From assembly GCA_026770585.1 (NCBI GenBank), contig MU646802.1, positions 98,483-125,000 on the forward strand: a stretch of DNA of 26,518 bases. Direction: 5' to 3'. Every line of letters starts with the position of its first letter. Positions within the stretch are counted from its first letter, which is position 1. Position numbers and translations under genes: made by a program. Origin of the DNA: Baffinella frigidus. Taxonomy: Eukaryota; Cryptophyceae; Cryptomonadales; Baffinellaceae. Shown here one piece after another: positions 320 through 26,518 of this stretch. The notes below the pieces were generated by a model. The model was not told the DNA's origin, did no database searches, and saw nothing but the letters and a program-made list of their open reading frames with translations.

Positions 320-720
320 TTGAGTGAAGAGGGCGGTGAGGGTGAGGTCTTCAAGGGCCTCGACTTCGAAGAAAAGTCCGAACCACGCGGTCCCGTACGG
401 CACCCGCTCCAGCAGCGACATCACCTGCATTGGGAAAGAGAGATGTGTATTAGATACCCATACAGTCACCAACTCTTGAGTGGGAAAGAGTTGAGCCCTG
501 GACCCCTTTCCAAAGTCAATAAGTGAATTCCGGGTACACGTTTCAGATCGTGGGGTGGGATTTCGAAGAAGAGGGCGAGCCACGCCGTCCCATACAGCAC
601 CCGCTCCAGGAGCGACATCGCCTTCATTGGGAAAGAGCGGTTTGTATTAGATACCCATACAGTCACCAACTCTTGAGTGGGAAAGGATTTAGCCCTGGAC
701 CCCTTTCGAAGAAGATCTGG
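320..720 (-). repeat. Tandem duplication of about 197 bp carrying exon D
   Basis: Positions about 360-515 recur at about 560-714, offset by 197 bases, including the shared stretch around ATTGGGAAAGAG and TTAGATACCCATACAGTCAC. Each unit holds one copy of exon D (60 nt; 424-365 and 621-562). The lower copy has CAG at its 5' edge and a GT donor. The upper copy has AAG at its 5' edge and AT where the donor should be, so it is probably dead. Confidence 0.75.
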
Positions 721-1017
721 GGTTCAGCATCACGTGTGCAGACGGAGTCCTAGCAAGGGCCCGACTCGGGCAAGGCACAGGACTGTCTCGGGTGCATTCG
801 GGGTGTAAAGGTTATCTCAGGTGTGTTCGAGGGGTGGGGGTGGCGGGTGCATCGGGTAGCAGAATGGAGTGGAGACAATTTCCTGAGCTAAAGCTAACGA
901 ATTCGTACAGCAAACCCAGTATGTCAAGTTAACAGAAGTGAGGTGCACCGGTTAGGAGAAGGGAGTGGAGACAAACTGCTCGGGCAAGGAGAAGGATTAT
1001 CGCGGGTGTTTTCGGGC

Positions 1018-1057
<40 letters not shown>

Positions 1058-4000
1058 GCTCTCTCGCTCTCTCTCGCTCCATCTCTCTCTCACACTCTCT
1101 CTATCTCTGTCTGTAAGATGGGTGGGTGAAAACCGGGTAGGAGAAGGGAGTAGAGACAAACTGCTCCTCCGTGTCGCCAAGCCTCCGCTTCGATGGCCTG
1201 ATCACCTGCTCGCCACACCTCTCTAAGTAACCGGATTATCCTTTCTTCGTCTGCTTCTTCTTCTTCGTATGTTTTTTGATTACTCGCACGCCTTAAGACG
1301 CGTGCTCCAAACGTCTATGCGCCTCAAGACGAGGCCGCCTCAAAACGCTAACACCCCTGCTATCATCCCGTTCAACACTCGACCCTGTGGGTAAGAAGAA
1401 GAGAGTAGAAACAAACTGCTCCTCCGCGTCGCCCAGTCTCCGCTTCGATGGCCTGATCACCTGCTCGCCACACCGTTGAGGGTGTAGGGTGTAGGGTGTA
1501 GGGTGTAGGGTGTGGGGTGTAGGGTGTAGGGTGTAAGGTGTAGGGTGTAGGGTGTAGGGTGTAGGGTGTAGGGTGTAGGGTGTAAGGTGTAGGGTGTGGG
1601 GTGTGTTTATCAACACCCTGCCATGATCTATTTCAACACACTCGACACTGTTGCCGCTTCGATGGCCAGATCACCTGATCGCCACGCCATTTGGGGTTTA
1701 ATAAGCGGTTAGCGGGGGCGGAAGGTGCCCCCTGGCAGGGGTAGGAGAACTCTGACACGGCAGGTAGGGGAAATAAACGATGAGCGGAGAGTTGGGCGGG
1801 GGGGGGTAGGGTTTATGGTTTAGAGGTTAGGGTTGGGGGCGTGCCTCGAGGGTCGGGAGGCGTTTGTCGACCACGAACTTTTCGAGGTACTCCTTGTATG
1901 TCATGCCTAGCTCCGCCGCCTGCATTTCGGGTTCAAGTTAAGGGTGTATTATTTATGGTTGAGGGTTTACGGTCCGAGGGATTTAGGATTTATGATTTTG
2001 CGGTTGATATTTAGGGGGGGTTGGGGGTTGGTTCGAGGTAGTCAACGTATGTCATGCCTAGCTTCTCCACCTGCAGGGCAGGGAGGTTAGTGTTTAGGGT
2101 TCAGGGTTGAGGGTTGAGGGTTGATGGTTTAGGGTTTGGGGTTTAGGGTTTAGGATTTAGGCTTTAGGGTCTGGGGTTTAGGGTTTAAGGTTCAGGGTTT
2201 ACGGCGTAGGGTTTTAGGTGCAGGGGTTATGGTTTAGGGTGAAGGGGCGCTCAGGGTTTAGTGAGGAACTGTTCGAGGTAGTCCACGTATCACATGCCTA
2301 GCTGCTCCACCTGATGTTAGGGTTTAGGGTTTGAGTTTAGGGTGTGTGATGTATGGTTGAGGGTTGACGATGCGAGGGATTCAGGATTTGGGGGTTATGT
2401 TTAGGGTTTAGGGTTTAGGGTTTAGGGATTCGAGGTAGTCCACGTATGGCATCTCTAGCTGCTCCGTCTGCAGGGTGGGGATGTTAGGGTTTGGGGAATG
2501 GGGTTTATAGGTGGGGGGTTATGGTGTAGAGGTTGGGGTTCAAGTTTCGGGTTTATGGGTCATGGTTCAGGGTTTACGATCCGAGAGGTTCAGATTAGGG
2601 GATTGTCTTTAGGGTTTGATTTCAGGTTGGGGGTTTAGGGTTTAGGACGCAGTGTCATGGCGTAGGATTTGGAGTTTAAGGTTGAAGTCTTAGGACTTAG
2701 GTTTAGGGTTTAGGGTTTAGGGTTTGGGGTTTAGAGTTTAGGGTTTAGGGTGTGGGGTTCAGGGTTTCGGGTTTAGGGGTTTCGGGTTTAGGATTTAGGG
2801 TTTACGTTTAGGATTTAGGGTTGGTGGTTTATAATTTGGGTTTATTGTTCAGAGTTTAGGGTGTAGGGTTTAGGGTTTAGGGTTCAGGGTTTAGGGTTGA
2901 GGGTTTAGGGTTCAGGGTTCAGGGTAAAGGGTTCAGAGGTTTGGGTTCAGGGCTCAGCGGTTAGAGTTGATGGTGGTGGACAACCTTGAGAATGTTCTCC
3001 TCAGCGCGCAGCAGCCGCTTGCTCGGGTCGGTGTCACCATCAATCCTAACCACTAAGCCCTAAACGCCATGAATCCTAACCACTCAGCCCTAAACACCAT
3101 CAATCCCAAACACTGAGCCCTAACCCAAGAAACCAGAAACCAGAAACCCTGAACCATGTTTGAACCTTGTTAAACCCTGAACCCTAAACCCGAAACCCTA
3201 CGGTTCAAGATTGAACCTTGAGAATGTTCTCTCCAGAGCGCTTCAGCCTCTAGCTCGGGGTCCTAACCACTGAGCCCTGATCAAGAAACTAGAAACCAGA
3301 AACCAAAAAAAACAGAACCCTGAACCTTGAGGATGTTCTCTTCAGCGAGCCGCAGCCGCTTGCTCGGATCGGTGTCGCGCGCCTGCGCCTGCGGTCGGGA
3401 GCAACTTCAGAAACCAGCAACTTAAGAAACCATAGAGAGCGACTTAAGAAACCATAGAGCGCAACTTAAGAAACCATAGAGGGGATTAGCTATGGCCCAT
3501 AGTAAATCAATTAGGCGATTAGAGCCGCTTGCTCGGATCGGTGTCACGCGCCTGCGCCTGCAGTCGGGAGCAACTTCAGAAACCGTAGAGAGCAACTTAA
3601 GAAACCGACGCAACGCTGCCCGTGAGTCGCTCCTCCTTTTTCGCATCCTAATCCAGGAGCATCCTTCAATTTTCTGAAAATGGGCACCGAAATTTACTAC
3701 GCAGGGCTCCTGCTAGTAATAGTAAAGCAAATGCGTAGTCAATGTCGTTGCCTATTTTCATTTAATTAAATGATGTTCCCGGATGAATCCTGTGTTTCGA
3801 GGGGCCGCGAGGAACTCCGTCAGTGCCATCTCAAGACACATCTCCTCACCTCTCTTCGCAAGACATATCCCCTGAGCTTTACTCCCAGGACACATCTCCT
3901 CAGCTTGCCTCTCAACACATTTCTCCTCAGCTTACCTCCCAAGAAATTTATCCCCATCTTTCCTCTCAACACACATCTCCTCAACTTTCCTCCCAAGCCT

Positions 4001-4371
4001 ATTCCAGACTTTGAAGAAGGTATCGGTGCTCCCCGCTGACATCCTCAGATCGTCTTTGCCGGGACCCCTGACGTGTACCACAAGTCGCCAGATTCCGGCG
4101 AGCTCCAGTACAAATCAAGGGGATGAAAAAGGCGATCACGCTTTGAGGAGTGGTCCACGCAACGATGACCTGTTGATCAAATCCCTGTGTTTTCAAAGTC
4201 AACGCGCCTTCAATCGCCCACAAATCTGTCAACTAATCCGGGTTCCGGGTTAAATTAATTTTATAAGTGCAAGGACTAATAGAAAGACTCAACAAAAACA
4301 CCTGTTTGGTACACAGACCATCGTCGCGTGGGGGGGACCTTGAAGTAGGTGTCGGTGCTCCCCGCTGACAT
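365..4371 (-). CDS. Unrecognised split gene with multiplied exons (partial)
   Basis: Short exon-like pieces on the minus strand share phase 0 and each has CAG upstream and GT downstream. In order: a possible first exon MSAGSTDTYFK (4371-4339, or its copy 4042-4010); exon A, ARDTDPSKRLRLAEENILK (3382-3326); exon B, AAELGMTYKEYLEKF (1919-1875); exon C, VIRPSKRRLGDTEEQF (1205-1158 or 1460-1413); exon D, VMSLLERVPYGTAWFGLFFE (424-365). Joined, they stay in frame without stops. The 3' end would lie beyond the left edge. Exons A to D each occur two to four times, and most extra copies are damaged by a stop, a frameshift or a lost splice site. I recognise no family: A and B look helical and charged, and D has a hydrophobic stretch. 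The order is inferred from position and phase. The MSAG piece could instead be an internal exon, because AG precedes its ATG in both copies. No transcript evidence is available. Confidence 0.45.
1015..1110. repeat. (CT)n microsatellite
   Basis: Nearly pure CT repeat with occasional CTCG interruptions. It lies between exon D and the first exon C copy of the left minus-strand gene. Confidence 0.9.
1158..1685 (-). repeat. Three copies of exon C
   Basis: Full copies lie at 1205-1158 and 1460-1413. Both read VIRPSKRRLGD(T/A)EEQF after AGCAG and end at TTT followed by GTCTCT or GTTTCT. A third copy, around 1674-1654, keeps only the first half. Fragments of the 3' end with the donor region recur near 970-985 and 865-885. 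The two full copies differ by Thr/Ala and look equally usable, so alternative use cannot be excluded. Confidence 0.6.
1479..1607. repeat. TGTAGGG heptamer array
   Basis: About 18 near-perfect GTGTAGG units of period 7. The array sits on the acceptor side of an exon C copy. Confidence 0.9.
1790..2960. repeat. Degenerate TTTAGGG array interrupted by exon B copies
   Basis: Telomere-type TTTAGGG with many variants (TTCAGGG, TTGAGGG, TTTGGGG). It is interrupted four times by related non-repeat stretches that are exon B copies. The CCCTAAA strand is the sense strand of the minus-strand gene. Confidence 0.85.
1875..2470 (-). repeat. Four copies of exon B
   Basis: The copies start at 1919, 2070, 2310 and 2467 (minus strand). 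The first reads AAELGMTYKEYLEKF and continues to a GTGGTC donor. The second reads VEKLGMTYVDYLE. The third carries an in-frame TGA after VEQLGM. The fourth reads TEQLEMPYVDYLE and then runs into heptamers. The shared G(M)xYxxYLE core shows that the frame is real. Only the copy at 1919-1875 has both a CAG acceptor and a GT donor. Confidence 0.65.
2985..3574 (-). repeat. Copies of exon A
   Basis: The intact copy is 3382-3326 (CAG before, GTTCAG after). The copy at about 3034-2985 keeps DTDPSKRLLRAEENILK and its GT donor but has no AG acceptor. The copy at about 3264-3214 is frameshifted. The copy at about 3551-3521 keeps the CAG acceptor but hits a stop after ARDTDPSKRL. Tandem AAGAAACC motifs lie between the copies. 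Confidence 0.6.
3048..3200. repeat. Degenerate CCCTAAA array
   Basis: AACCCTAA-type and AGCCCTAA-type units in the opposite orientation to the array at 1.8-2.9 kb, between exon A copies. Confidence 0.7.
3682..3752. mobile_element. Short palindromic MITE-like element
   Basis: Ends GGCACCGAAATTTACTACGC and, inverted, GCGTAGTCAATGTCGTTGCC. Relatives lie at 17332-17402 and 24215-24275, with core GGCAACGAAATTACTACAC. Confidence 0.55.
3823..4007 (+). repeat. 27-bp tandem repeat, about seven units
   Basis: Units resemble ACACATCTCCTCAGCTTACC plus CYCAA. On the plus strand the array is open in one frame as a nine-residue repeat of the form SQDTSPHLS. It ends against a copy of the MSAG exon on the other strand. 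I read it as an intronic minisatellite; a Ser/Pro repeat protein is the alternative. Confidence 0.75.
4010..4371 (-). repeat. Duplicated candidate first exon
   Basis: Two copies share GAGG plus an 11-codon stretch: MSAGSTDTFFK (4042-4010, donor GTCTGG) and MSAGSTDTYFK (4371-4339, donor GTCCCC). Similarity stops just upstream of the ATG. The boundary at AG-GATG means this could also be an internal exon with an AG acceptor. Confidence 0.5.
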
Positions 4372-4412
4372 CCTCCCTCCAGCTCCGCCCGCCAGCTCCG
4401 TCACCTTCACCC

Positions 4413-4453: not shown

Positions 4454-4484
<31 letters not shown>

Positions 4485-4485
4485 G
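4413..4485. repeat. (GA)n microsatellite
   Basis: Pure GA tract with occasional GGGA interruptions. The rest of 4490-4990 holds no gene I can support; it includes a hairpin at about 4562-4608 with arms around CACACACCAGCCAAACC. Confidence 0.9.
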
Positions 4486-5014: not shown

Positions 5015-5178
5015 CTGCGCGCAGCATACCACCAGCCCTCCGAGGTGGACCAAATCGAGGCTGGGGCATGCGCCAATTCCTCGGGCGGCACCTTTGAAAA
5101 CGAACGTGCCACCCGAGGAGATGGCTCCAACAATCGTCGATATGCTCCGCTTCGCAGGGCTGGTGGTCCAGCGCAGAG
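5015..5178. mobile_element. Imperfect palindromic element
   Basis: CACCAGCCCT near the left end pairs with AGGGCTGGTG at the right end. An internal stem CCTCGGGCGGCAC pairs with GTGCCACCCGAGG. Several overlapping frames are open across it, but that follows from its symmetry. A related element with CCACCAG ends lies at 19801-19977. Confidence 0.5.
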
Positions 5179-5297
5179 CACACCGCACTTCCCAACTGAT
5201 CAATCGCGGCAAGAGTTGCGGGCAGTGCAGTAGATTGATCCCAAGAGTCTCTGGGGGGGTTGAACGCAAGTACAGATCTGAAGGTAGCCAGAGACAT

Positions 5298-5517
5298 TTG
5301 GGTTTAGGGTTTAGGGTTTAGGGTTCAGGATTTAGGGTTTAGGGTTAAGGGTTAAGGGATAAGGGGCTAGGGGTCAGGGTTTAGGGTTCAGGTTTTAGGG
5401 TTTTAGGGTGTGGGGTTTGGGGATTAAGATGTAGTTTTTAGGATTCAGGGTTTGGTTTTTAGGGTTTAGGGTTTAGGGTTTAGGGTTTGGGGTTTAGGGT
5501 TTATGGTTTAGGGTTTG
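5298..5517. repeat. TTTAGGG heptamer array
   Basis: Telomere-type heptamers directly abutting the 3' end of the minus-strand gene at 5.5 kb. One CCCTAAA unit supplies that gene's stop codon. Confidence 0.9.
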
Positions 5518-6141
5518 GCCCAGTGGACGCACGGGGGCGGGTCGGGAGGCACCTCCCATTCGGTGTCGCTGAACACAAACTCACTGATGATGCTCTCCGT
5601 GAGACCCTGCGCCCCCGCCGCATGACACAGATCAACATGCCGTGAGGAGGCCGAGCATGCCAACGTGCACGATGCATCAACGCTACCCTGCAGGTGGCGG
5701 GGGAGGGGGGGGGGCGTGCGGTACAGGGGAGAGGTGGGGACGCACCTCGTCGTCGTCGCGCGAAAGCGACACTCGGTTCATCCAGTTTCTCACTTCCCTG
5801 GCAGCGTTCAACACCCCCGGCACGCTCTTCTTCGTGGTGTCCCACGCGGAGAAATCCGTGTTCCCCTGCGAGGCCCCGCCCTTCCCCCCCTGCCCTGACG
5901 CGCCAGCTGGCTCGTCGGCGTTGAGGAACTTGTCCTGCCGCCGAATCATTACCACCCCCCCGGGTCCCCCGGGTCGTTGCCCCGGCCGCGCGCATGCTGC
6001 TTTGCTGAACCGGCTGAGAGCTGCCAGCCCAGACAGCGGCGTGTGCGGCCGGAGCGCCGCTGGTGGGGAAGCGAAGCCGGCGGCGGACGCCAGCACGGAG
6101 AAGGCGACCGCAAGCCGCCCGACGGACGCGGAGGGTCCCAT
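5508..6141 (-). CDS. Putative plastid-targeted protein, two exons
   Basis: Exon 1 runs 6141-5746 (132 codons) from an ATG in the context GAACGAAATGGG to a good donor, GAG-GTGCGT. Exon 2 ends at TAA 5508 and starts either at 5606 (GCGCAG) or at 5687 (CTGCAG after a long C-rich tract). Both are phase 0, giving 164 or 191 residues. The N-terminus has a hydrophobic core, LAVAFSVLASAAGFA, as a signal peptide. A basic Ser/Pro/Ala-rich stretch follows (about residues 25-60), as in bipartite plastid-targeting leaders of secondary-plastid algae. The mature part has a Gly-rich linker, then NTDFSAWDTTKKSVPGVLNA and an acidic end. The C-terminus includes ESIISEFVFSDTEWEVPP and HWAKP. I do not recognise the family. 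The stop codon lies inside the adjacent heptamer array. Signal prediction is by eye. Secretion instead of plastid import is the alternative. Confidence 0.6.
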
Positions 6142-7556: not shown

Positions 7557-7679
7557 TACAGGGGTACCTCGCTCATAAGAAACCGCCCCCCCCCCCCTAG
7601 GACCACCGTAGGGCCCTAGGCGTAGGCCTACTGTAGGGTCCTTAGGGGAGACGGTTTCTTATGTGCGAGGTACCCCTGA
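7557..7679. mobile_element. GGTACCTC-type MITE-like palindrome
   Basis: The left end GGGGTACCTCGCTCATAAGA is matched inverted at the right end (TTCTTATGTGCGAGGTACCCC). The centre is rich in CCTAGG and GTAGG steps. Relatives lie at 8126-8169 (partial), 8170-8288, 8326-8374 (partial) and 16407-16530. Chance frames across these ends explain several spurious short peptides. Confidence 0.75.
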
Positions 7680-8125: not shown

Positions 8126-8374
8126 GCAGGGGTACCTCACTCATAAGAGATCGCCCCCCCCTAGGACCCTACAGGGGTACCTCACTCATAAGAAACCGCA
8201 ACCCCCTAGGACCATACAGTAGGACCATGCCTAGGGTCCTAGGGTGGTCATAGCGGGGGGGGGGGGGTTAATGAGCGAGGTACCCTGACGTGTACAGTAG
8301 GCCCATGCCTAGCTAGGGCCCTATGGTGGCCCGTCATGTAGGGGGGAGGCGGTTTCTTATGAGCGAGGTACCCT
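8126..8374. mobile_element. Cluster of GGTACCTC-type MITE-like elements
   Basis: A partial element (8126-8169), a nearly complete palindrome (8170-8288) and a right-half element (8326-8374) lie head to tail, as if elements had inserted beside one another. A C7 and a G14 run are included. Confidence 0.65.
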
Positions 8375-8439
8375 TGTACATGTGACGCTTGACTCCGATC
8401 ACGCCCACTGCACATTTTTTGTTGAGCCGAAGGAGGGGA

Positions 8440-13800: not shown

Positions 13801-13990
13801 AAAGTGAATATACCGCCTGCACCACCTGCGGCAAGGCCTTCTCGCAGTCCGGCATCCTTGCAAAGCATATGCGCAGCCATTCCGGTGACCTGGTAAGAGT
13901 CGCACGACTTAAGCATGCACCACCTGCGGCAGGGCCTTCTCGCTCTCTCACAAACTCGCAAGGCCACCGCAAATCCATTCCCACAATCGA
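13801..13990 (+). pseudogene. C2H2 zinc-finger pieces, second copy degenerate
   Basis: The first finger reads CTTCGKAFSQSGILAKHMRS followed by H, a complete C-X2-C-X12-H-X3-H (from Cys at 13818). It is followed by SGDL and a strong donor-like GTAAGA. A second copy starting with Cys at 13916 reads CTTCGRAFSLSHKLARPPQI, then H. It lies 98 bp later, so out of frame, and has lost the first histidine. Tandem fingers normally repeat every 84 bp in frame. I see no other fingers and no clear start. It may be one exon of a split gene plus a decayed copy, or a relic. DNA binding is known of the family only. Confidence 0.5.
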
Positions 13991-14880: not shown

Positions 14881-17800
14881 TCACAGCTCGGAACGCGCGG
14901 GGGGCGTCCATGCCGCTACGGGGGAGCAGTACTCCCACCAGATCGATGCGAGGCCGTAGAGGGCCTGCAGCTTGGAGGAGAACGAGAGCTTCGAGCCTGC
15001 GACGTCGTACCATTGCTCGAGTGGGAACTCGTAGATGACTGCCTCGCACCTGCGGTTGGGGTTTGGAGGTTGGGGATTTGAGGATTGGGGTTTGGGGTTT
15101 TGGGTTTTGGGTTTTGGGTTTTGGGTTTTGGGTTTTGGGTTTTGGGTTTTGGGTTTGGGTGTAGGGTTTGGGGTTTGGGGTTTGGGGTTTAGGGTTTAGG
15201 GTTTAGGGTTTAGGGTTTAGGGTCTAGGGTCTAGGGTTTAGGGTTTAGGGTTTAGGGTTTAGGGTTAAGAGTTTATGATTAGGGTGTAGGGTTTAGGGTT
15301 TGGGGTTTATGGTTTATGGTTTAGGGTTTAGGGTTTAGGGTTTAGGTTGAGGGTTCAGGTTTAAGGTTTTAGGTTTAGGGTTTAGGTTTAGGGTTTGGGG
15401 TTTGGGGTTTGGGGTTTGGGGTTTGGGGTTCGGGATTTGGGGTATAGGGTTTACGCTCTAGGGTTTAGGGTTTAGGGTTTAGGGTTTAGGGTTTAGGGTT
15501 TAGGGTTTAGGGTCAAGGGTTTAGGGTTTAGGGTTTAGGCTTTAGGTTTTGGGGTTTAGGGTTTAGGTTTAGGGTCAAGATTTTAGGTTTTAGGTTTTAG
15601 GTATAGGTTTAGGGGTTTACGGTTTGGGGTTTGGGGTTTGGGGTTTGGGGTTTGGGGTTTGGGGTTTGGGTGTAGGGTTTAGGGTTTGGGGTTTGGGGTT
15701 TGGGGTTTAGGGTTTAGGGTTTAGGGTGTAGGGTTTAGGGTTTGGGGTTTAGGGTTTAGGGTTTAGGGTTNNNNNNNNNNNNNNNNNNNNNNNNNNNNNN
15801 NNAGGGTTTAGGGTTTAGGGTTTAGGGTTTAGGTTTTAGGGTTTAGGGTTCAGGGTTTAGGGTTAAGGATTTAGGTTCTATGTTTAGGGTTAGGGGTTAG
15901 GGTTCAGGGTGTAGGGTTAAGGTTTATGTTTAGGTTTAGGGTCAAGAGGTTTGGGGTTAGGGTTTAGGGGTGGGATTAGGGTTTAGGTTCAGGGTTTGGG
16001 GTTTGGGCTTTAGAGTTCCGCGCTGGACCACCACCACCCTGGGCGTGGGTGGCTCACTTTCCTCCGGGGGAGCTGGGAGCTGGGGCGAGGCCGTCCCGTT
16101 TCATTAAGGCTCATAGACGTTTATATCACTCAACTCACGGCTTGAGGGCCTGGCGTGTCTAGGACCTGTATCGAGAGTAATGAAGAAGAAGTAGAAGCAG
16201 GGTGAAGAGTCCTAGGTCTGTTTGTATGAAACTAGGCTCGCCATAAAAGCTTCTTAACCGCCCTTTAATACTGGAGTTTATTCTCTACATGTATTTTAGG
16301 GCGAGCCCAGTTTCACTCAGGCAGGGCTAGGAGTGTTGGAGCGCACCTGAACGTATCCCGGGGGGGCGCTTTGACTCTCTCTTTCGGGTGGAAAGTGGAC
16401 GGCCACTACAGGGGTACCTCACTCATAAGAAACCGCACCCCTCTAGGACCATACAGTAGGACCATGCCTAGGGTCCTAGGGTGGACCTAGGGGGGCGGCG
16501 GCGGTTTCTTATGAGCGATGCACCCCCGTACACGATGCCTCAGATTATCCTCCACCAGGTACACGTTTTAGGGTTTAGGGTTTCAGGTGGAGCGTGCCTG
16601 GGCGTTTCCCGGAGGGTGCGGAGCCTTCGACTGTCTCTTTCTGGTGGAGAGTGGACGGCCACCATAAGATGGTTGAGATGCTCCTCACACGTTCAGGGTT
16701 TAGGGTTTCAGGATTTGAAGGGTTTGAAGGGGAGCGTGTCTGGGCGTTTCCCCGGGGGGGGCGCTTTGAGGGTCTTGAAGCGCTCGACGAGCTCTACATC
16801 AAAGATAAAAACAGGCCAAAAGTCGATACCGCATGTGGTCAAGACGGGGAAGGCACACTCATTTAGTACCACGAAACGAAACGGTGCGTTCTGTAATTCC
16901 CAGTTATGAATCGGCGTGGTACCTGGGCGTTTCCCGGGGGGGTGCTTTGAGGGTCTTGAAGCGTGCGATGAGTTCTACGTCGAAGATCCACCCTGATGTG
17001 AAGGGCGCCGACAACGCCTGGTTTGGGTTTTGGGGTTGAGGGTTTGGGGTTTGGGGTTTGGGGTTTGGGGTTTGGGGTTTGGGGTTTGGGGTTGAGTGTT
17101 CAGTGTTAAGTGTTTCCGCACCCGACGGCCATAAGGTCTACGTTTTCACGAAGGCCATATTTGGTCATCTGAAGGGCCTCGTGTTTTCGCAACTTTATGT
17201 GCAAACACGTGGCCCTTCAGATCAATTTCGCGAAATTGTCGACCCCAAATTTGAATATTTGAGACCCCGAATTTGAATATTTTACACGACATAAACATAT
17301 GTACAGATACTGATCTGATTTTTTAAAAATCGGCAACGAAATTCACTTCACATAACGATCTTCATTAGTAATGTTCAAGCAAACGTGTAGTAATTTTCAT
17401 TGAAATCCAACGTGTTAGATTAAATCAGTTTGTCTATGAAATCTGAACGACAGAACGGATCTTTCTGGCGGCGTCGTCCTCTCCTCCCACCAAAACTATC
17501 TTGAGACTACCCTCAAGATAGCAAAAATGTAATTTAAATTCAAAATGATTTAATTTAAATTGCATAATTGAATCTGTTTTCATGTGAGGTCCTCCCGCAT
17601 CACTGCCTCAACCTAGTATTCCCTAACACTGCAGAAATACGCTAGTTGGTGTATGGTATTGGACTGCGGTAGGTCCTAGGGCCTAGTACCGCATCTCGTG
17701 TAGGGGCTGTAGGACCAACCCTTGACCCTAAACCTGAAACCTTAAACCCTCAATCTTAAACCCTAATCCCTAAGCCCTAAGCGATGAACCCTAAGCCCTA

Positions 17801-20800
17801 AGCCCTAAGCCCCAAGCCCTAAGCCCCAAACCATGAACCTTACACCATAAACCCTAAACGTAGGCTAAATACCAGTATTGGCAGCGTGTATGGGTGGGAA
17901 GGTTCCACCTCCTTCTGGATGGTACGGGGGTTGCCGAAACCCAAAACCCGAAACCCCGAAACCCGAAACCCGAAATCCGAAACCCGAAATCCCGAATCCC
18001 GAAACCCGAAATCCGAAATCCCGAAACCCCGAAACCCGAAATCCGAAACCCGAAACCCCGAAACCTGAAATCCCGAAATCCCGAAACCCGAAATCCTGAA
18101 ACCCGAAATCCCGAAACCCAAAATCCCGAAACCCAACACCCGAACCATAGAAGGGTGAGGGAAGGAGACCGCGCTGAGGTCGGGGGATCCAAAGGGATTT
18201 CGTGAATAACCCATGAGTGGATACTCCATAGCTCCTACGGTAGGTAATCCGCAGTGACGTAGGGTTATTCCTAGGGCCGTTCTAACGGAACGTCGGCCGC
18301 ATTGCCATATCTCGTGTAGGAGCTGTAGGGCCTGCCCTAAGCCCTAAGCCCTAAGCCCTAAGCCCTAAGCCCTAAGCCCTAAGCCCTAAGCCCTAAGCCC
18401 TAAACCGCAAACCATAAACCATAAACGTGGGCTGAACACCTGGGCCGAACACCTATGTTGGCAGCGTGTATGAGTGGGGAGCAGACCGCGGTGAGATCGG
18501 AGGAGAGTCGAATAGCGTGGGCTAAATAGCTACATTGGCAGAGTGTATGGGCAGGGAGGAGACCGCGCGGAGGTCGGGGAATCCAAAGGCATTTCGTGAA
18601 TAACCAATACGTGGATAATCCATAGATCCTACGGTAGGTAACTTGTGGGGACGTAGGGTTATTCCTAGGGCTTTCCTAACAGAACGTCGGTCGCATTGCC
18701 ATATTTCCCCTTCGAAGCCCGCTGTGTGGGGTGGGAGGGTGACCGCGCGGAGGTCAGGGGTGCCAGTGTGATGAGGTCGTGTTGCCAACGAGAGAGAGAG
18801 AAAAAAAGAGAGGGAGAGGGAGAGGGAGAGCGAGAGAGCGTGAGTTAGAGAGAGATAGGGAGGGAGAGAGTGAGAAAGAGAGCGAGAGAGAGCGAGTGAG
18901 ATAGGGCGAGAGAGAGAGAGAGCGAGCGAGCGAGAGAGAGCGAGTGAGATAGGGAGAGATAGAGAGAGAGAGAGAGAGCGAGCGAGATAGGGAGAGAGAT
19001 AGAGAGAGAGAGCGCGAGTGAGATATGGAGAGATAGAGAGCGAGTGAGATAGGAAGCGAGAGAGAGAGAGAGAGAGCGAGTGCGATAGGGGGGGGAGGAG
19101 AGGGAGAGAGAGAGAGAGGGAGAGAGACCGCGCGGAGATCGGGGGTGACGCGGAACATCTTAGCCCCGCACTGCGTATCGTAGATCGCCAGATCCAGAAC
19201 CTGCTTTCATACTTTCCCGTTAGGTCCCGTTTTTTTATTATAAAAAACACCATAGGCGCACCGTGGAACGAATGCTGCAGAATGGCCCTGCTTTTACCCC
19301 TTCACGAAGGAGAAAAGGCGCCAGCGTTTTCATTCTTTCTGCGCCCCCCCGAGCGCCCCCGCGTCCTTCACGCCTCACGCTTCAAAGTCTAGCTCTGCCT
19401 GAGTTTTATTCTGGCTCGTCCTAAAGGCTTTCTGTTCGCCTGTTTGTACTGGATTTCTGCTCTTAAATTCTTTGAAGGACGAGCCATAATAAAACTCGGA
19501 CAGAGCTTCAAAGTGCACGGGCGGACACGGCATCGACCTCTTGGCACACTGGACAGAGGACCCTACACCCTACACCTTACACCCTACACCCTACACCCTG
19601 CACCGCAAACCCTACACCTCAAGCCCTACACCCTCAACCAGGAGCGACGTCTGCACGATCCACCATCTAGCTCTGCCTGCGTTTTATTCTGGCTCGTCCT
19701 TGAAAGGATTGAAGGACGGAAATCCAGTACAAAAGGGCGAATAGAAAGCCTTGAGCACGAGCCAGAATAGAACTCAGGCAGAGCTGGACAATAGCGCCCA
19801 TGCCACCAGCCCTGGGAGGTGGCTCAAATTGCGGTCTCGAGTTTGAGCCATCTTACCTTACAGCGGGGTCGATTTGACCCCACTACAACTTGACAAGTCA
19901 CATTCTTTGTGCAAAATAAATTTTGGGATTTCTGTCCCAGACCATAAGTTGAGCCACCTCCAAGGACTAGTGGTGGTCTCCGGGGCTCAAAAGCAGGGGT
20001 GGCTCGGGGTTAGCAACCAGCGAACCGAGCGTCGCGATGATGCGTCCGAGCTATTGCCTGCTTCACCCTACACCCTACACCCTACACCCTACACCCTGAA
20101 CCTTACACCCTACACCTTACACCCTACACCCTGCACCCTACACCCTACACCCTACACCCTACACCCTCGAACCCAGGCAGGGCGCTGTGATGTCTTATCG
20201 CTTAGGTGTTATTCAAAATGCGTTCGAAATCTGCTGTGTGGGGAGGCTCGGGGTTAGCGACCAGCGAAGCGAGCGTCGCGAAGATCCGCCCGAGGTAATG
20301 CCTGCTCGGGTCCCGCTGAATGTCGCGCCCTAGCAGCGCGACCCTGTTGTGGAGTTTGGGGTTTAGGGTTTAGGGCTTGGGGTTTGGGGTTTGGGTTTAG
20401 GGTTTGGGGTTTAGGGTTTAGGGTTTAGGGTTTAGAGTTTAGGGTTTAGGGTTTAGTGTTTAGGGTCAAGGGTTTAGGTTTGAGGGTCCAGGGGCCAGGG
20501 TTTATGTTTAGGGTTTAGGGTTTAGGGTTTAGGGTTTAGGGTTTAGGGTTTACCGCGCGCCGAAGACCATCTCGAGGCGCGGCTGTTCGTCCAGCTTCGC
20601 GGCGAAGGGCTTGATGGTGCCTGATTTTTTTTTTTGTTCAGCGCCCAGCGTCTTGGGGCTGCTGTGGGCGGGTTTTCTGCCAGCGGCGCTGGCACCTGTG
20701 GGCGGGTGCAGGTGGGCGGAAGGGTTGTTGGGGGGGCTGGGTTCAGGGATGGATGTTTGTGGAGGATTGGGGAGGTGTGGTGTGGGTCGGACCGAGCGGG

Positions 20801-21496
20801 GTGGCGAGATCAGCGTCCCAGAACGCTACGTAGTCCGCTTCCGAGAGCGAGTGCGCCTGCGGCAGATCGCCACGGTCACCCAAGTTGGTACGGTCACCGC
20901 CCAATGTCGTGAGATCGCTTCGTTGGTATGCGGTATGCGGTATGCGGTATGCGGTTTGGGATATGGTGTTTGGGGTTCTCAGAGACATGCCGCGCGCGAT
21001 ACGGGGCAATATTCGCAGAGGTAAGGTGGTGGAAACTCCTCACAAAGCTCAGGTACCAATCCAGCTGCGACCCATCCCACATCCCCATCCTCTGGGAGGA
21101 CAGCGAGAAAATCCTTGGACTGTATGAAACAGAGGGGTGAGGTTCGACCGTCATCACGTGGTTGATCCCCTGCCGCACGGCCTCAGCCTTGCCCCCGTTC
21201 TTCGCCAGGTCAAGGACGAAGAGGTTCTTTGGGTGCGCGGCGGCGAGGATCTTGAGCACGCCGAGCGTCCCGTCCTTGGACCCGTCGTTGACAAACGTGA
21301 AGAAGACGTTCGCGTTGGCCGGATCGGACGCGTACGCCAGGAATTCCGCTCGTGGCAGCCGCTCCACCTCGTTGTAGCACGGCACCACGACGTGCGTGCT
21401 CCCCGCGGCGACGCCCTCCACCGCCGCTGCTAGCAGCATGCCCAGCACCACCGCCCACCGTACCATCCCAACCCCCCGCATCGCTCTGCCAGACAC
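14881..21496 (-). CDS. Family 2 glycosyltransferase (ALG5/DPM1-like), seven exons
   Basis: Exons: 21496-21158, 20856-20793, 20620-20554, 20343-20262, 19200-19129, 17017-16923, 15049-14881. The joins are GT-AG with matching phases (0,1,2,0,0,2), giving 295 residues and a TGA stop. The N-terminus has a hydrophobic leader (about residues 11-31; the start could also be Met6 or Met11). GT2 marks follow in order: VVVPCYNE (36-43), NDGSKDGT (70-77), [10 protein letters not shown] (101-110), [10 protein letters not shown] with the metal-binding DAD (127-129), [32 protein letters not shown] (191-201), WIFDVEL (218-224), and [17 protein letters not shown] near the C-terminus. These are diagnostic of enzymes moving sugar from a nucleotide donor to dolichyl or polyprenyl phosphate. 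The leader points to ER entry or anchoring, but donor sugar and compartment are not certain. Only about 13% of the span is coding. The introns (301, 172, 210, 1061, 2111 and 1873 bp) hold heptamer arrays, microsatellites, MITE-like palindromes and decayed exon copies. Confidence 0.88.
15055..16015. repeat. Large heptamer array in glycosyltransferase intron 6
   Basis: Blocks of TTTTGGG, TTTGGGG and TTTAGGG, each fairly homogeneous, with variants between. The array starts within about 10 bp of the exon 7 acceptor, so CCCCAAACC units form the pyrimidine-rich end of the intron. A sequencing gap interrupts it. Confidence 0.95.
15771..15802. other. Assembly gap (32 N)
   Basis: Run of N inside a TTTAGGG array. 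True array and intron length are unknown here. Confidence 0.99.
16211..16331. mobile_element. MITE-like element in intron 6
   Basis: The left end CCTAGGTCTGTTTGTATGAA (then ACTAGGCTCGCC) pairs with GGCGAGCCCAGTTTCACTCA (then GGCAGGGCTAGG). The layout resembles the elements at 19391-19507 and 19669-19785 (CTCTGCCTGAGTTTTATTCT ends). Confidence 0.65.
16335..16815 (-). repeat. Three decayed copies of glycosyltransferase exon 6 end
   Basis: All lie downstream of true exon 6 (17017-16923, donor CAG-GTACCA). Copy b (about 16815-16735) still reads [18 protein letters not shown], but has no AG acceptor, an extra C/G causing a frameshift, and GA at the donor. Copy c (about 16660-16597) has GC at the donor. 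Copy d (about 16400-16335) retains CAG-GTGCGC. Copies c and d share further upstream sequence (GGCCGTCCACT) that is absent from exon 6. Confidence 0.7.
16407..16530. mobile_element. GGTACCTC-type MITE-like palindrome in intron 6
   Basis: Same ends and CCTAGG-rich centre as the copies at 7.56-8.37 kb, here nested beside the exon 6 copies. It shows that these elements sit in introns of an intact gene. Confidence 0.75.
17035..17095. repeat. TTTGGGG heptamer array at exon 6 acceptor
   Basis: About eight TTTGGGG units starting about 15 bp upstream (in gene sense) of exon 6. On the sense strand they read CCCCAAA and end in ACCAG. Confidence 0.9.
17160..17225. repeat. Stem-loop
   Basis: ATCTGAAGGGCCTCGTGTTT pairs with AAACACGTGGCCCTTCAGAT around a short loop. 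It may be the end of a longer AT-rich insertion that runs to about 17590, in which I see no gene. Confidence 0.7.
17332..17402. mobile_element. Short palindromic MITE-like element in intron 5
   Basis: Ends GGCAACGAAATTCACTTCAC and, inverted, GTGTAGTAATTTTCATTG. Relatives at 3682-3752 and 24215-24275. Confidence 0.55.
17735..17865. repeat. CCCTAAG / CCCTAAA heptamer array
   Basis: Period-7 units AAGCCCT with a few AAACCCT. Orientation is opposite to the arrays in introns 3 and 6. Confidence 0.85.
17935..18150. repeat. CCCGAAA heptamer array
   Basis: CCCGAAA and TCCCGAAA units alternate, so periods of 7 and 8 both occur. The long frames here (RNPKPE or GFRVSGF repeats) are translated repeat. 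Confidence 0.9.
18170..18757 (-). repeat. Four copies of glycosyltransferase exon 5 tail with donor
   Basis: True exon 5 ends VTPDLRA at 19129, followed by GTCTCT. Further down the intron, minus-strand copies read GTPDLRA-GTCACC (about 18757-18736), [14 protein letters not shown] (about 18580-18550), SDLTA-GTCTGC (about 18500-18483) and [14 protein letters not shown] (about 18192-18170). All keep the GT. Two are joined to the same 70-bp palindrome (GAATAACC...GGTTATTC; 18202-18271 and 18598-18664), so the repeat unit is larger than the exon tail. Confidence 0.75.
18327..18430. repeat. CCCTAAG heptamer array
   Basis: About ten near-perfect AAGCCCT units, then AAACCAT units, inside intron 5. 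Confidence 0.9.
18788..19125. repeat. Long (GA)n microsatellite
   Basis: Over 300 bp of GA with GAGC, GATA and GTGA interruptions, beginning at the exon 5 donor. On the sense strand it is a CT tract. Confidence 0.95.
19391..19507. mobile_element. MITE-like element, copy 1
   Basis: Perfect AGCTCTGCCTGAG... left end pairing with ...CTCGGACAGAGCT. The inner arms TTTTATTCTGGCTCGTCC and GGACGAGCCATAATAAAA pair too. Length 117 bp. Confidence 0.85.
19560..19640. repeat. CCCTACA heptamer array
   Basis: Period-7 CCCTACA with CCTTACA and CCTGCAC variants, between two MITE-like copies in intron 4. Confidence 0.85.
19669..19785. mobile_element. MITE-like element, copy 2, inverted centre
   Basis: Same ends and length as 19391-19507, but the centre is in reverse orientation: copy 1 has GTACTGGATTTCTG, copy 2 has GAAATCCAGTAC. 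Either the whole element inserted inverted or the centre flipped between its arms. Confidence 0.85.
19801..19977. mobile_element. CCACCAG-ended palindromic element
   Basis: GCCACCAGCCCTGGGAGGTG (then GCTCAA) pairs with TTGAGCCACCTCCAAGGACT (then AGTGGTGG). An internal stem GGGGTCGA/TTGACCCC is present. It resembles 5015-5178. Confidence 0.6.
19991..20065 (-). pseudogene. Dead copy of glycosyltransferase exon 4
   Basis: This minus-strand stretch parallels true exon 4 (20343-20262) and its flank. Where exon 4 has [13 protein letters not shown], the copy reads Q[15 protein letters not shown], with TAG replacing the Tyr codon, and then keeps a GTTGCT donor. Intron sequence just past the donor (CTAACCCCGAGCC) is also shared, so the duplication covered exon plus intron. 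Confidence 0.8.
20065..20172. repeat. CCCTACA heptamer array
   Basis: About 15 CCCTACA units separating exon 4 from its dead copy. Confidence 0.9.
20351..20552. repeat. TTTAGGG array filling intron 3
   Basis: Nearly the whole 210-bp intron 3 is heptamer repeat. The donor itself (GCGCG-GTAAACCCTAAACCC on the sense strand) merges into the first repeat unit, and the acceptor AACAG lies about 8 bp past the last. Confidence 0.95.
20928..20955. repeat. TATGCGG heptamer array
   Basis: Four units of GGTATGC in glycosyltransferase intron 1. The period is again 7 but the sequence is unlike a telomere. Confidence 0.8.
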
Positions 21497-21789: not shown

Positions 21790-24700
21790 ATGGTGGCGGA
21801 CAGCCTGGTGGCTGGCGCAGAGCCGCTGCTGGTTGCAGTCCACGGCGAGACGGACACCTGGGAGGAGCTCGAACCCCTGGTGCGGCGCCACTGCCAGCCG
21901 TTCGGGGGGTTCGCGTGGACACCGAAGCGCGCGGATCTGGACGCGGTTGTTGTCGAGCGGCTGGAGCTGCGGTTCCACGCCGCGGGGGATGCTGTCCTGG
22001 ACGAGGGCGCTCCGCCGCTGCAGTGGAGCAGCAGGAGTTTTCTGCACATTTTGGTGTTGCGGTGCGATGATGCGAAGGCGTACAAGGATTCTGTCTTCGA
22101 GCGGACGAGCGCGTGGGTAGCGTCCCTGCCTCTCACACGCATCGTGCTGATGCTTGACCAGTATTTGCACTCCCTCTCCCATCCCCGTGTCCAGTTTCAA
22201 AAATCTCAAGTGCAGTTCTTCAACAGCAGTGTAGAGTGATCTCAGCGAATCCATTCCTTCTCCCCACATCCGTTCCCACGGCTCAGGTTCTAGCGCCCCA
22301 GCCCAGAACCCCCCTTGCAACCCCTGACTCAGCACACATGGTTCGGGCGAAGAGATTTGGGAAAAGCTCGCTGGTCTGAATCCTTTTCACCAGGTGGCTG
22401 CGCGGACAGACGCCCGGCAGGAGCTGCTCCTGGTGCATGTGCAGCGACAGGCGCCCCGCCAGGCAACTCTCCCCCCCAAACTGCTGCCTGCCGAGGGGAT
22501 AGAAACGCTGCAAATGCTGGCGCGCCAGTTGCGGTCTCCGAACACACAAGTGTGTGCGCGGCACGCGGTTCTGTACCTGTTTGTTTGCATGATGCCAGCC
22601 ACTCCATGGGCGATCGCGCGGCAGCAGCATCCCAGCTCTGTCTCATTCAATTTGGGTCCACCAATTTGTTGAGCCCAGGCTCTTTCCCGCTCCAAAGTTG
22701 ACGGGTTTGTACCATACGACCAGCATGTCAACTTAAGAATTGTCCAACCGGATTGCAGGCAGAGCTACCACGCCAGAACCTTGGAAGAGGTCGCCAGAAG
22801 TCAATTCCTCCTGAGGGCAGTGGTTTTCAAAAGTCGACAACCGCTTTCAGATGCGGTTTAACAAAATCAACCCCCACCTTGAATCTGGCGTGGTAGGCAT
22901 CCGCGCATGCGAGGTGCCAGGCAGAGGCGCATCCCAACGCTGCCTCTCACCAAGATTTTTCCTCTGGCCAATTTTTCCCCTTTGACCAAGATGTTTCGGA
23001 TGTTTCCCTCGGACCAATCTGTTTCCTCTGACCAATCTGTTTCTCCTTTGACCAAGATGTTTCCCTCTTACCAAGATGTTTCCCTCTGACGAATCTCTTT
23101 CCACGGACCAATCTGTTCCCCCTCACCAGGATGATTCCTTTTACCAATATGATTCCTCTGACCAAGAGGTTTCCCTGTGCCCAATCTGTTTCCTCTGACC
23201 AAGATCTCAGACGAAAAGCTGGGTCCCGCGGCAGGCAACCTCGTTCGGTTTCAAGGCCGCCTCGTCTGCCGCTGCCACCCACAGGTCCCTAAACTCGAAA
23301 CCCTAAACGCTAAACCCTTAACCCTTAACCCTTAACCCTTAACCCTTAACCCTTAACCCTTGACCCCAACCACTGAACCATAAGCCCCAAACACTAAACC
23401 CCAAACCCCAAACCTTAAACCCTAAACCCTAAACCCTAAACCCTGAAACCTAAACCCAAAACCCCAAACCCTAAACCCTAAACCATAAACCCTAAACCCT
23501 AAACATCAAACCCCAAACCCCGCACCCTAAACCCTAAACCCTTAACCCTAAACCCTACACCCTAAACCCGAAATGGTAAAGCAGGAAGATGGTGGAGAAG
23601 TTGCGGGCGGACCTGAAGCTGGAATCGCGCATCGCATCCTTCGACTTCTCGCAATCCCCGCCCGCCTCCCTCGGTACGATTCGAGAGAGGGGGAGGGGAT
23701 GGGGGGGGGGGAGAGAGAGAGCGTGAGAGGGAGAGAGAGAGGCAGAGAGGGTTTAGATAGAGAGACGTCCACACACTTATGCACTGCCAGGCCAGAGATT
23801 TTGTAAAAGTCAATCCAACCACAAAATCTGTCAACTTAGAAACGAGGTACCTAGATTGGGTACTTCGAAAATCGATTTTTGTCTTGAGTTGACTAATATA
23901 AAAACTCCGCCCTGGCAGTGTAATGCGGCATCAACCTGTTTTCGGGGTGCTGTACCACCCCACACACTTCCGATGCGGGCCGGTCATAGACTCCTCGCCC
24001 CGATGCGGGCCTATCCCATGCCATTCCTCAGAGTGAACCGTCGATACCCCAATGCGGTATCAACCTGTTTTCGGGGCGATGTACCACCCTACAGTGTTGC
24101 TCTAGAATACCCACCGTAGTCAAACACGGTCTGTCCCGAGCCATTCCTGAGCGTGTGCCACTGGAGCGGGGAGAGCACTCTTATCGCGGCAAGTGTTTAT
24201 AATACGTACGTTTTGGCAACGAAATTACTATACACCTGGAGCTTCCGGTCACGTCCGTGTAGTAATTTTCGTTGCGAAACGGGTCGGAGACCCCCGAAAT
24301 CGTATTTATGATTAGTTGTCGTCCAGATGAACTCCGTGAAGCTTCGCGTGTGGGATGTCACGCGATACCTTCTGCACGGGAGGGCTGCCACGTCTTATCC
24401 GGGCAACCGCGTGCTCTTCAGGTGTTGGGACTACACTGTACAGTAGGACCCGGGGCTCCTAGGTCCGCGTTTCTCGTACGAGCCGAGCCCTAGGACCGTA
24501 GCGAAATACCTATCGCATGCCATTCCTGAGGAGGTGACGCTCCACATAGCAGACTTCACGGATACAGTCCATCTAAACTTCACGGATACAGTCCATCTAA
24601 ACTTCACGGATGCAGTCCATCTAAACTATTTGTACTAGAATCTTATCCATTGCCCTAGAACTTAACCGGAATTTCACCTTGCATTCACGGTGAAAAGGTC

Positions 24701-26034
24701 CTCGATCGCTGCTAAGTGGGCACACCACGCAGGGGACGAGGCGCACAAGGCGGACGCGCAGCTGCTGGGGGCGCTGATCTGCCAGGGGGTTATGGCTGCT
24801 GTCGATTCCCGCCGCGGAGAATACCAAGGTGCCACTCCTTTTCTTCTTCTTCTTTTTTTCTCCCTTTTTGTTTTTTCTTCCTTTTTTTGTGTTCTTCTTT
24901 CCTTTTTGGTGTTCTTCTTGTTCTTGTTCTTGTGGTTCTTGTTGTTCTTGTTCTTGTTCTTGTTCTTGTTCTTGTTCTTGTTCTTCTTGTTCTTCTTGTT
25001 CTTGTTCTTCTTGTTCTTGTTCTTGTTGTTGTTCTTGTTGTTCTTGTTGTTGTTCTTCTTCTTCTTGATTACTCTGGCGCCTATGAATGATCCAAACGCC
25101 TACGAGCCGGTACCACACAGTAGGCTTCGCATATCGAGTTCTTTGTTTTCGTGGTACTAATTGAGAACTTCTCGGTACAAAGTCGTCTTATTAATCGGCA
25201 TTTCGACCGGATTTTTGGTCGAATTTTCCTTCGAAGCCCACTGTATTGCTGCACTACTGTCAAATTGACATGGTGATGTTGGGCCACTCACTCAGTCATT
25301 TATTCATTTATTCATTCATGCATGCATTTCATCGTCATCCATCCATCCGTCCATCCGTCCATCCGTCCATCCGTCCATCCATCCATCCATCCGTTCATTC
25401 GTCATTCATTCGTCCTTCATGCACGCATTCATAAATCCACTCATTCATTTCATCATCCATGCATTCTTTCATCTCATCGTCATCCAATCATGCATCAACT
25501 CAGTCCATCCTCATCCATTCAGTTCATCACCCTCCATCCATCCATCCATCCATCCATCCATTCATTCATTCATTCTCATAGGGTAACGGCCTGAAAATGG
25601 GGTAGTTAGGCATACGGCATTGCCTAGGACCTTCTACCGTAGGCCGAGGGATCCTAGGACCAAAAAGTCTCGGCCTACGGTAGGAGGTCCTAGGCAATGC
25701 CGTAGGCCTAACTACCCCATTTTCAGGCCGTTACCCTATTAATTCGTTTGATGCATGCCACGAACGAATCATGGTCCGCAGCGGCAAACCGCATTTCATC
25801 ACGCGTTCATTCACTCATTCATGGTGGGCAGCGGCGGCGAGATGGCACTACTCTATCATGCCAAAAGTGATACTGATTCAGTGATCGTCCGAAATGAAAG
25901 TGACATCGTGGTGGTGGTGGGCAGCGGCGGCGTCGGCGGACGCGATAACAGGCGGGCGCGCGGACCTCGGGTCGGTGTTCCTCGCGCGCGATGCTCTCGC
26001 GGCCCTCTTCCTCTCTCTTGGCGCTCCTCGCGAG
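21790..26034 (+). CDS. TRAPPC10: TRAPP II subunit TRAPPC10/Trs130-like, 5' part
   Basis: Exons: 21790-22116, 22394-22533, 23585-23673, 24733-24828 and 25925-26034 (or from 25952). Phases match (0,2,1,1), every acceptor is CAG, and the gene must continue past the right edge. Exon 1 has FHAAGD and SFLHILVLRCDDAKAYKDSV, like the conserved FLHI..TC.D...YK segment near the N-terminus of TRAPPC10. Exon 2 gives TDARQELLLVHVQ, where the family has a WLIVYV-type strand. Exon 3 (KMVEKLRADLKLESRIASFD) resembles the KLRNDF...RC segment. Exon 4 has VDSRRGEYQ, where relatives have LDRR...YE. Exon 5 has FLARDALAALFLSL, matching the FF..KE.LA..FE helix. Using acceptor 25925 restores the usual spacing between these last two motifs. 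The protein would tether vesicles at the Golgi as part of TRAPP II. Identification rests on recalled family motifs, so it is moderately sure. Introns carry a CCCTAAA array, minisatellites and a long palindrome. Confidence 0.6.
22960..23215. repeat. Minisatellite of 17-20 bp units
   Basis: About a dozen variants of CTGACCAATCTGTTTCC and TTGACCAAGATGTTTCC in TRAPPC10-like intron 2. The charged peptides on the minus strand (RGNRLVRGK) are translated repeat. Confidence 0.9.
23285..23575. repeat. CCCTTAA then CCCTAAA heptamer array
   Basis: A clean block of AACCCTT passes into AAACCCT. It ends about 10 bp before the exon 3 acceptor (AAGCAG) at 23584, so CCCTAAAC units occupy the branch-point region on the sense strand. 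Confidence 0.95.
23688..23760. repeat. (GA)n / GAGG microsatellite
   Basis: It starts just past the exon 3 donor and includes a G10 run. The arrangement parallels the GA tract at the glycosyltransferase exon 5 donor. Confidence 0.85.
23925..24105. repeat. GCGGCATCAACCTGTTTTCGGGG tandem units
   Basis: ATGCGG(C/T)ATCAACCTGTTTTC with GTACCACCC recurs at about 23921-23965 and 24052-24095, with shorter GATGCGGGCC units between. Intronic; no gene seen. Confidence 0.6.
24215..24275. mobile_element. Short palindromic MITE-like element
   Basis: Ends GGCAACGAAATTACTATACA and GTGTAGTAATTTTCGTTGC. It is the best preserved of three family members. Confidence 0.65.
24553..24626. repeat. 24-bp tandem repeat, three units
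   Basis: Three near-identical copies of ACTTCACGGATACAGTCCAT plus CTAA. The third has GATGC for GATAC. Confidence 0.95.
24835..25070. repeat. TTCTTG microsatellite
   Basis: TTC-rich, then GTTCTT units, beginning at the exon 4 donor of the TRAPPC10-like gene. Poly-Leu/Val or EQEQ frames are translated repeat. Confidence 0.95.
25285..25575. repeat. CATT / CATC tetranucleotide repeat
   Basis: CATTCATT and CATCCATC blocks with CGTCCATC variants. Intronic. Apparent His/Pro/Ser-rich peptides are translated repeat. Confidence 0.95.
25578..25739. mobile_element. Near-perfect 162-bp palindrome
   Basis: ATAGGGTAACGGCCTGAAAA at the left equals, inverted, TTTTCAGGCCGTTACCCTAT at the right. Pairing continues through GGGGTAGTTAGGC and GCATTGCCTAGGACC almost to the centre (about 70 bp per arm). 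It is the best preserved inverted-repeat element in the window and so probably the youngest. It lies between TRAPPC10-like exons 4 and 5, just after the CATT repeat. Confidence 0.9.
25780..25850 (+). repeat. Copies of the TRAPPC10-like exon 5 start
   Basis: GGTGGGCAGCGGCGGCGAGA at about 25823-25843 repeats the acceptor and first bases of exon 5 (GGTGGGCAGCGGCGGCGTCG at 25917-25936). A weaker copy, GTCCGCAGCGGC, is at about 25770-25785. Here the acceptor side is multiplied, not the donor side. Confidence 0.5.
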
Positions 26035-26437
26035 GTTCTCCCTGCCCCACACGAGGCTATCCATGCGAACAGAATAAAATGACATTTTGAAAAATTGTGG
26101 GATATGATCACGTTTCCTCCTGCTTTTTCCGGGGGAAACGTGATCAATTGCTGACTGGTGGCGTGTTTCCTGGGTAATAATTCAATAATTGACTTATGAA
26201 TCTGTTCGCATGGATAGCCTCGTGTGGCCCAGGAGACGGCCTTTGTGTGTGACACCACGTTCTTACTATGCCTATCTTTCAGGTGTATCTATCCTTGTCC
26301 CCCCCCCAACAATTGCGGCGTCAGTGGCCTTCACACGCCTGCCGCTTCGTCCTTGTTAGTGCTCAACCCCCCTCAAGACTGATGCGAAAAAAACTTGAGG
26401 GGGGTAGAGCAGGCGGAAGATTCGTGCGTGTGTCCCC
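26035..26437. other. Intronic or unassigned sequence
   Basis: It holds a short inverted repeat GATCACGTTTCC/GGGGAAACGTGATC (about 26106-26144) and a hairpin CCCCCCTCAAG/CTTGAGGGGGG (about 26366-26406). No further exon recognised. Confidence 0.5.
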
Positions 26438-26518
26438 CCCCCCCCCCCCCCCCCCCCCCCTTGACAGACTCGAGCTGGTCCGTCCGCTGAAGCCCCCCCC
26501 CCCCCCCCCCCCCCCCCC
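26438..26518. other. Poly-C runs at right edge
   Basis: C runs at about 26435-26460 and 26493-26518 mirror the poly-G at the left edge. Probably contig breaks at homopolymers. Confidence 0.8.

Follow-up and report, generated by a model that had tools for sequence, protein, structure and literature searches.

The origin of newly gained intron sequence can seldom be traced easily. In the window, by which the whole analyzed stretch of 26,518 nucleotides is meant, introns of a glycosyltransferase gene carry short segments that resemble the ends of the adjacent exons, and the locus raises the question of whether these segments record how the introns grew. Part of the source of the intron sequence can be recognized here because the neighboring exon is conserved. 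Each copy would then be a fossil with an orientation, left by a single growth event, and the extent of its decay would allow its age to be judged.

Gene models and their surroundings

The DNA of the window is eukaryotic, with spliced genes, numerous inverted-repeat elements and TTTAGGG-type heptamer arrays. Three genes were modeled (Table 1). Among the 18 predicted introns, 16 start with GT and one with GC, all 18 end with AG, and one donor is misplaced in the model (t2-t3). The 293-amino-acid frame of the glycosyltransferase gene matches the Pfam family Glycos_transf_2 (E 2e-15), and a search of solved structures for protein relatives returned a single weak match, a bacterial glycosyltransferase (E 2e-4). 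The second gene showed no clear protein family in Pfam (best E 0.07) and stands as a predicted model without family support; the N-terminus of its product may be of a plastid-targeted type. An apparent GC donor of its exon eB is located at 1844-1845.

Heptamer arrays occupy 2688 of the 13929 intron bases versus 252 of the 9877 bases outside the three genes, with 25 runs listed. Two whole introns in two genes consist to about 95% of heptamer array (20344-20553, 0.95, and 23285-23584, 0.96, both TRF-masked). Four of 24 intron heptamer runs end within 30 nt of the acceptor, in the CCCTAAA sense orientation, and could serve there as a pyrimidine tract and branch-point-like sequence. A MITE-like inverted-repeat element recurs in intergenic and intron DNA (7559-7678, 8127-8378 and 16407-16530). 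Two adjoining C2H2 zinc-finger-like units (13815-13981; 69 nt, 74%; named by eye) lie in otherwise unassigned DNA. Runs of 23-27 G or C residues at both window ends (1-23, 26434-26460 and 26493-26518) and an internal run of N (15771-15802) mark possible assembly limits. No RNA family reached its gathering score in the window and no tRNA was detected there. Viral contigs contained no match to four DNA patterns derived from the repeat elements and from a stretch of heptamers, a protein scan of viral contigs gave 13 pattern matches of which none was confirmed as a relative, and searches of genome contigs with one pattern and of phage records yielded no match.

Exon-edge copies on both sides of the exons

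Every exon, together with 40 nt of flanking sequence, was first compared with its own gene. In addition, 36 probes for splice junctions, comprising at most 80 nt of exonic and 25 nt of intronic sequence, were searched against both strands of the repeat-masked window at E <= 0.01. Once self matches had been dropped, 34 rows remained; 33 of these collapse to 20 distinct copies because probes of short exons overlap, and the last is a weak match elsewhere (E 0.005). As a measure of chance, 100 dinucleotide shuffles of the repeat-masked window gave a mean of 0.19 hits and a maximum of three. A laxer sweep of each junction's own intron (E <= 0.5, 36 tests) produced four further hits, 11-17 nt long (the best at E 0.044, three on the wrong strand), which were set aside. 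Assembly error was considered as a source of the copies and rejected, since they differ from the exon by 3-21%.

Thirteen copies are exon tails (one of exon 4, four of exon 5, three of exon 6, one of e3 and two each of eA and eD) and seven are exon heads (one of eA, three of eB, two of eD and one of eC). Every one of the 20 reaches the splice junction, keeps the strand of its exon and lies in the intron adjoining it. Tails were found downstream in 13 of 13 cases and heads upstream in seven of seven, which corresponds to the expected side for 10 of 10 families; the true exons eA and eD are each accompanied by heads on their upstream and tails on their downstream side. The first-pass annotation of this DNA had described the copies as an exon end with its donor, a description that holds for the 13 tails and fails for the other seven, which are exon starts with their acceptor. 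All eight copies that it had placed in the glycosyltransferase gene, with their donors, were recovered, and its dead exon 4 copy with TAG in place of Tyr is visible in the codon alignment. Its statement that the pattern recurs in two other genes had to be narrowed to one: the second gene (347-6141) holds 12 copies, five tails and seven heads, and the TRAPPC10-like gene holds none. The pattern is real, well supported and broader than that annotation described.

Table 1. Genes, true exons and exon-edge copies in the window.
Feature	Position	Strand	Length, identity, E value or basis	Remarks
Glycosyltransferase gene	21481-14881	minus		7 exons, GT-AG introns, open 293-aa frame
Exon 4 (true)	20262..20343	-		flanked by AG/GT, 293-aa frame preserved
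Exon 4 tail, decayed copy	19996..20062	-	67 nt, 88%, E 4e-17	donor GT; Tyr codon to in-frame TAG
Exon 5 (true)	19129..19200	-	exon model	
Exon 5 tail copy 1	18733..18762	-	30 nt, 87%, E 1e-4	donor GT
Exon 5 tail copy 2	18553..18579	-	28 nt, 93%, E 1e-4	donor GT
Exon 5 tail copy 3	18472..18506	-	36 nt, 81%, E 0.005	donor GT
Exon 5 tail copy 4	18152..18186	-	probe comparison and self-comparison	donor GT
Exon 6 (true)	16923..17017	-	exon model	
Exon 6 tail copy 1	16740..16806	-	67 nt, 87%, E 2e-15	donor GA; 2-nt indel
Exon 6 tail copy 2	16594..16616	-	23 nt, 91%, E 0.002	donor GC
Exon 6 tail copy 3	16345..16374	-	30 nt, 87%, E 1e-4	donor GT
Second gene	6141 to about 347	minus		at least 7 predicted exons
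Exon e3 (true)	4339..4404	-	exon model	
e3 tail copy	4007..4046	-	40 nt, 92.5%, E 7e-10	donor GT
Exon eA (true)	3326..3388	-	exon model	
eA head copy	3523..3582	-	60 nt, 97%, E 2e-19	acceptor CAG; upstream of true eA
eA tail copy 1	3212..3258	-	47 nt, 83%	donor GT; in-frame stop
eA tail copy 2	2982..3034	-	53 nt, 91%, E 8e-14	donor GT
Exon eB (true)	1845..1919	-	exon model	donor GC
eB head copy 1	2429..2472	-	44 nt, 80%, E 2e-6	acceptor CAG
eB head copy 2	2266..2313	-	48 nt, 81%	acceptor CAG; in-frame stop
eB head copy 3	2032..2075	-	44 nt, 84%, E 4e-8	acceptor CAG
Exon eD (true)	1134..1205	-	exon model	
eD head copy 1	1654..1688	-	35 nt, 91%	acceptor CAG
eD head copy 2	1389..1474	-	86 nt, 92%, E 2e-25	exon nearly whole; acceptor CAG; donor lost
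eD tail copy 1	947..981	-	35 nt, 94%	donor GT; in-frame stop
eD tail copy 2	842..878	-	39 nt, 79%	donor AT
Exon eC (true)	347..424	-	exon model	predicted; 3' end provisional
eC head copy	559..646	-	in duplicated block 710-559 / 513-362 (152 nt, 88%; 45 nt apart)	acceptor AAG
Third gene, TRAPPC10-like	21790-26034	plus	TRAPPC10 resemblance, E 2e-5	under Pfam cut-off

Copies were detected in seven of the 18 introns: in seven of the 11 that are at least 600 nt long and in none of the seven shorter ones, an association that is partly built in, as long introns are longer partly through their copies. The 11 introns in which the searches detected no copies include all six of the TRAPPC10-like gene and the 1148-nt e2-e3 intron. 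The process is frequent and not universal even within the window.

Alignments and self-comparison revealed that the similarity crosses the junction into the intron. The shared intron sequence amounts to 22 nt at exon 4 and to 89 nt upstream of eC within the duplicated eC block, and the regions upstream of eB and of its head copy 1 share a stretch of 111 columns at 70%. The earlier claim that adjoining intron is part of the duplicated unit is borne out at these three exons, and all 20 copies are direct-orientation exon edges that reach the junction and lie beside their source, with shared intron flanks in several families, as a duplication across the junction would leave them. The four exon 5 tails are 28-36 nt long (81-93%), and at copy 4 the block 18313-18160 repeats 18707-18554, where copy 2 is located, over 154 nt at 86%; this duplicate takes in a tail copy together with the flank upstream of it. 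Changes absent from the exon are common to all three eB heads, whose ends fall at, or within about 6 nt of, one exon base. These shared changes and the 154-nt duplicate at exon 5 show that the series consist partly of copies of copies, and about ten founding duplications across junctions, or slightly more than that, could account for the 20 copies in 10 families.

Only a part of the distance from copy to copy is homologous: 67 of 244 nt at exon 4, 67 of 181 nt at exon 6 copy 1 and 40 of 329 nt at e3, with eC as the exception (152 of 197 nt). Self-comparison detected unrelated DNA between the repeats. The copies are not pure head-to-tail duplications of the whole spacing, which later insertion could explain. 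As the spacing is mostly unduplicated, filler arrived together with the duplication or elements were inserted later.

Neutral decay and competing explanations

For 19 of the 20 copies, substitutions were counted in stretches that align by codon without gaps. Exon 6 copy 2, too short and gapped, was omitted and exon 6 copy 1 was cut before its indel. The 19 copies contain 34 synonymous and 51 nonsynonymous differences and four in-frame stops. The nonsynonymous share of 0.600 (51/85) is to be compared with 0.602 expected for a neutral copy and a constrained exon over equal times, and with 0.751 if both were neutral (P 0.0015, an approximate value because copies within a family are not independent). 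The poor fit of the latter case indicates that the exons chosen as true are, as a group, the constrained ones. The exonic part of the copies decays neutrally. The splice dinucleotide was retained in 17 of the 20 copies (donors GT in 10, GC, GA and AT in one each; acceptors AG in seven of seven) and about 16 are expected under neutrality at 0.106 changes per site, so that a kept GT is no sign of use. GT is present in all four exon 5 copies, as had been pointed out, and does not speak for their function.

These data bear directly on the possibility that the copies are mutually exclusive exons, living or decayed, in which case whole exons would have been duplicated in tandem and one of them chosen, now or recently. 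Such an origin would suit eD head copy 2, which comprises nearly the whole exon with an intact acceptor and a compared stretch free of stops, the canonical splice dinucleotides, and exon 6 copy 1, which has five synonymous to two nonsynonymous changes before its indel. It is nevertheless very improbable, since 19 of the copies are partial exons and the twentieth has no donor, four of 19 contain in-frame stops, exon 6 copy 1 carries a 2-nt indel, dinucleotide retention is about what neutrality gives, and living or recently dead exons should show a lower nonsynonymous share than the one observed. The combination of both splice sites, an open frame and purifying selection was not found among the copies. 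The first-pass annotation had named decayed mutually exclusive exons as the alternative, and partial copies and neutral decay disfavor them. Transposable elements, for example introner-like ones, might instead insert at exon edges and leave the copies as target-site duplications. The inverted-repeat element at 16407-16530 does lie between exon 6 copies 2 and 3, a dispersed repeat (18729-18614) lies between exon 5 copies 1 and 2, element-like pieces were read by eye at exon 4 and e3, and a report on Amoebophrya introners describes direct repeats that overlap exon/intron boundaries (PMC7789003). Those direct repeats are 3-5 nt long, whereas the copies measure 23-88 nt by probe; the flanks of the element at 16407-16530 suggest, by eye, duplication of TA only, and no more than 45 nt separate the two eC copies. 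Introners would be marked by many similar introns across unrelated genes, with inverted ends and short duplications of the target; this combination was not found within the window, where the copied unit is the local exon edge, with one weak match elsewhere. An origin of the copies by insertion of elements is considered unlikely. A comparably low probability is given to the telomere-like heptamer arrays as the cause, through unequal exchange or single-strand annealing that multiplies the DNA between them. Arrays make up much of the intron sequence (see above) and are located between eB head copies 1 and 2, eB head copies 2 and 3, and eD head copies 1 and 2, but only six of the 20 intervals between successive members contain an array run of at least 28 nt. 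Exchange from array to array would moreover copy exons whole, without cuts inside them, and can account for the amplification of copies, not for the founding events.

The number of duplications at junctions was compared with that elsewhere in the introns. Local same-strand duplicate pairs within genes (28-700 nt spacing, E <= 0.05) touch an exon or a copy in 29 cases and do not in three; at the level of families, 10 are junction-spanning versus two intron-only. One of the latter, 19785/19507, pairs two inverted-repeat elements; the other, 24093/23964, was still counted although it belongs to the third gene. The pair 2642/2029, being intron flank of the eB heads, was left out. Plain self-comparison detects the exon 5 family through a copy-to-copy pair only; this family enters the 10 through the more sensitive probes, and the count somewhat favors junctions for this reason. 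Seven intergenic local duplicate pairs were also listed. With unchanged search settings, the expected junction share was simulated on the eight introns of the first two genes that measure at least 600 nt. It amounted to 0.09-0.12 for introns of their present length (P 2e-9 to 2e-8 for the observed 10 versus two) and to 0.43-0.58 for introns of 200 nt at the time of most events (P 0.006-0.07). Past introns of about 200 nt are a fair reading because seven of the 11 copy-free introns are 139-300 nt long, and even at this length plain random duplication fits uncomfortably, in a small sample. The junction excess is suggestive, a hint and no proof of a process aimed at splice junctions. The ratio of 10 to two families, set against these expected shares, allows for a reading, considered improbable, in which duplication in this lineage is targeted to junctions and tied to transcription or splicing, by way of junction breaks or pre-mRNA-templated repair, and would be a main engine of intron growth.

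Probable intron growth across splice junctions and related systems

Judged from the sequence, the introns have probably grown through local duplications that recurred across splice junctions and often came with filler, and of which only those that left a whole exon survive. Confidence in this reading is slightly lowered because the model of the second gene has no family match. The duplicated stretch would be short and comprise some exon edge and some adjoining intron, and the filler between copies may be element-like sequence, telomere-like heptamer array or sequence that could not be placed. After a duplication that spans the donor, the true exon and the first donor would remain intact and the second edge would fall into the downstream intron; after one that spans the acceptor, the last acceptor would stay with the whole exon and a spare edge would be left upstream. 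Splicing at the outer sites would render the copies invisible in the mRNA, so that they survive and decay neutrally, and duplications that break the exon, including those inside it, would be lost. Intronic copies would then be duplicated again with their flanks and give rise to series. Candidates for the duplicating step are template slippage and the repair of staggered double-strand breaks by fill-in and joining with filler. Sidedness would accordingly be set by selection, and eA and eD, with their heads upstream and tails downstream, match this prediction. If the pattern is common genome-wide, counts of such fossils would directly yield the rate, side and age of intron growth, and would tell special targeting of junctions from the mere recognizability of random duplications there.

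Literature searches, mostly outside subscription journals, retrieved no report of serial decayed copies of exon edges on both exon sides in the texts available, although this does not prove novelty. A tandem duplication that spans the boundary of intron and exon has been described for potato (PMC4974935) and in a review (PMC3443670). In the case described, the block likewise consists of an intron end and an exon start with splice signals, and one copy ends up intronic. That case is a single recent event which makes a new intron, whereas in the window about ten founding events would have lengthened seven existing introns, on both exon sides, serially and with decay. The Daphnia study (PMC4202315) reports that repair of staggered double-strand breaks leaves direct repeats, some of them common to the adjacent exon, and proposes that repeated bouts lengthen introns passively. 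Those Daphnia repeats that match one adjacent exon measure 4-12 bp, in contrast to the blocks in the window, for which the probes gave 23-88 nt and which with their flanks reach 154 nt. Interstitial telomeric insertions in horse and human (PMC7215372) are similar in that telomere-type repeats are inserted at repaired breaks and that the target is directly duplicated in 3 of 66 horse loci, with two further complex ones; the arrays of the window differ in separating some copies only, in their degenerate TTTAGGG type and in their concentration in introns. The gain of introns through tandem duplication in Drosophila (PMC2891723) shares with the window the duplication of coding sequence that turns intronic, and differs in that exonic proto-splice sites are duplicated and new introns created. 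Among these systems, the copies described here are best filed as a long, serial and two-sided variant of the junction-spanning duplication and staggered-break models.
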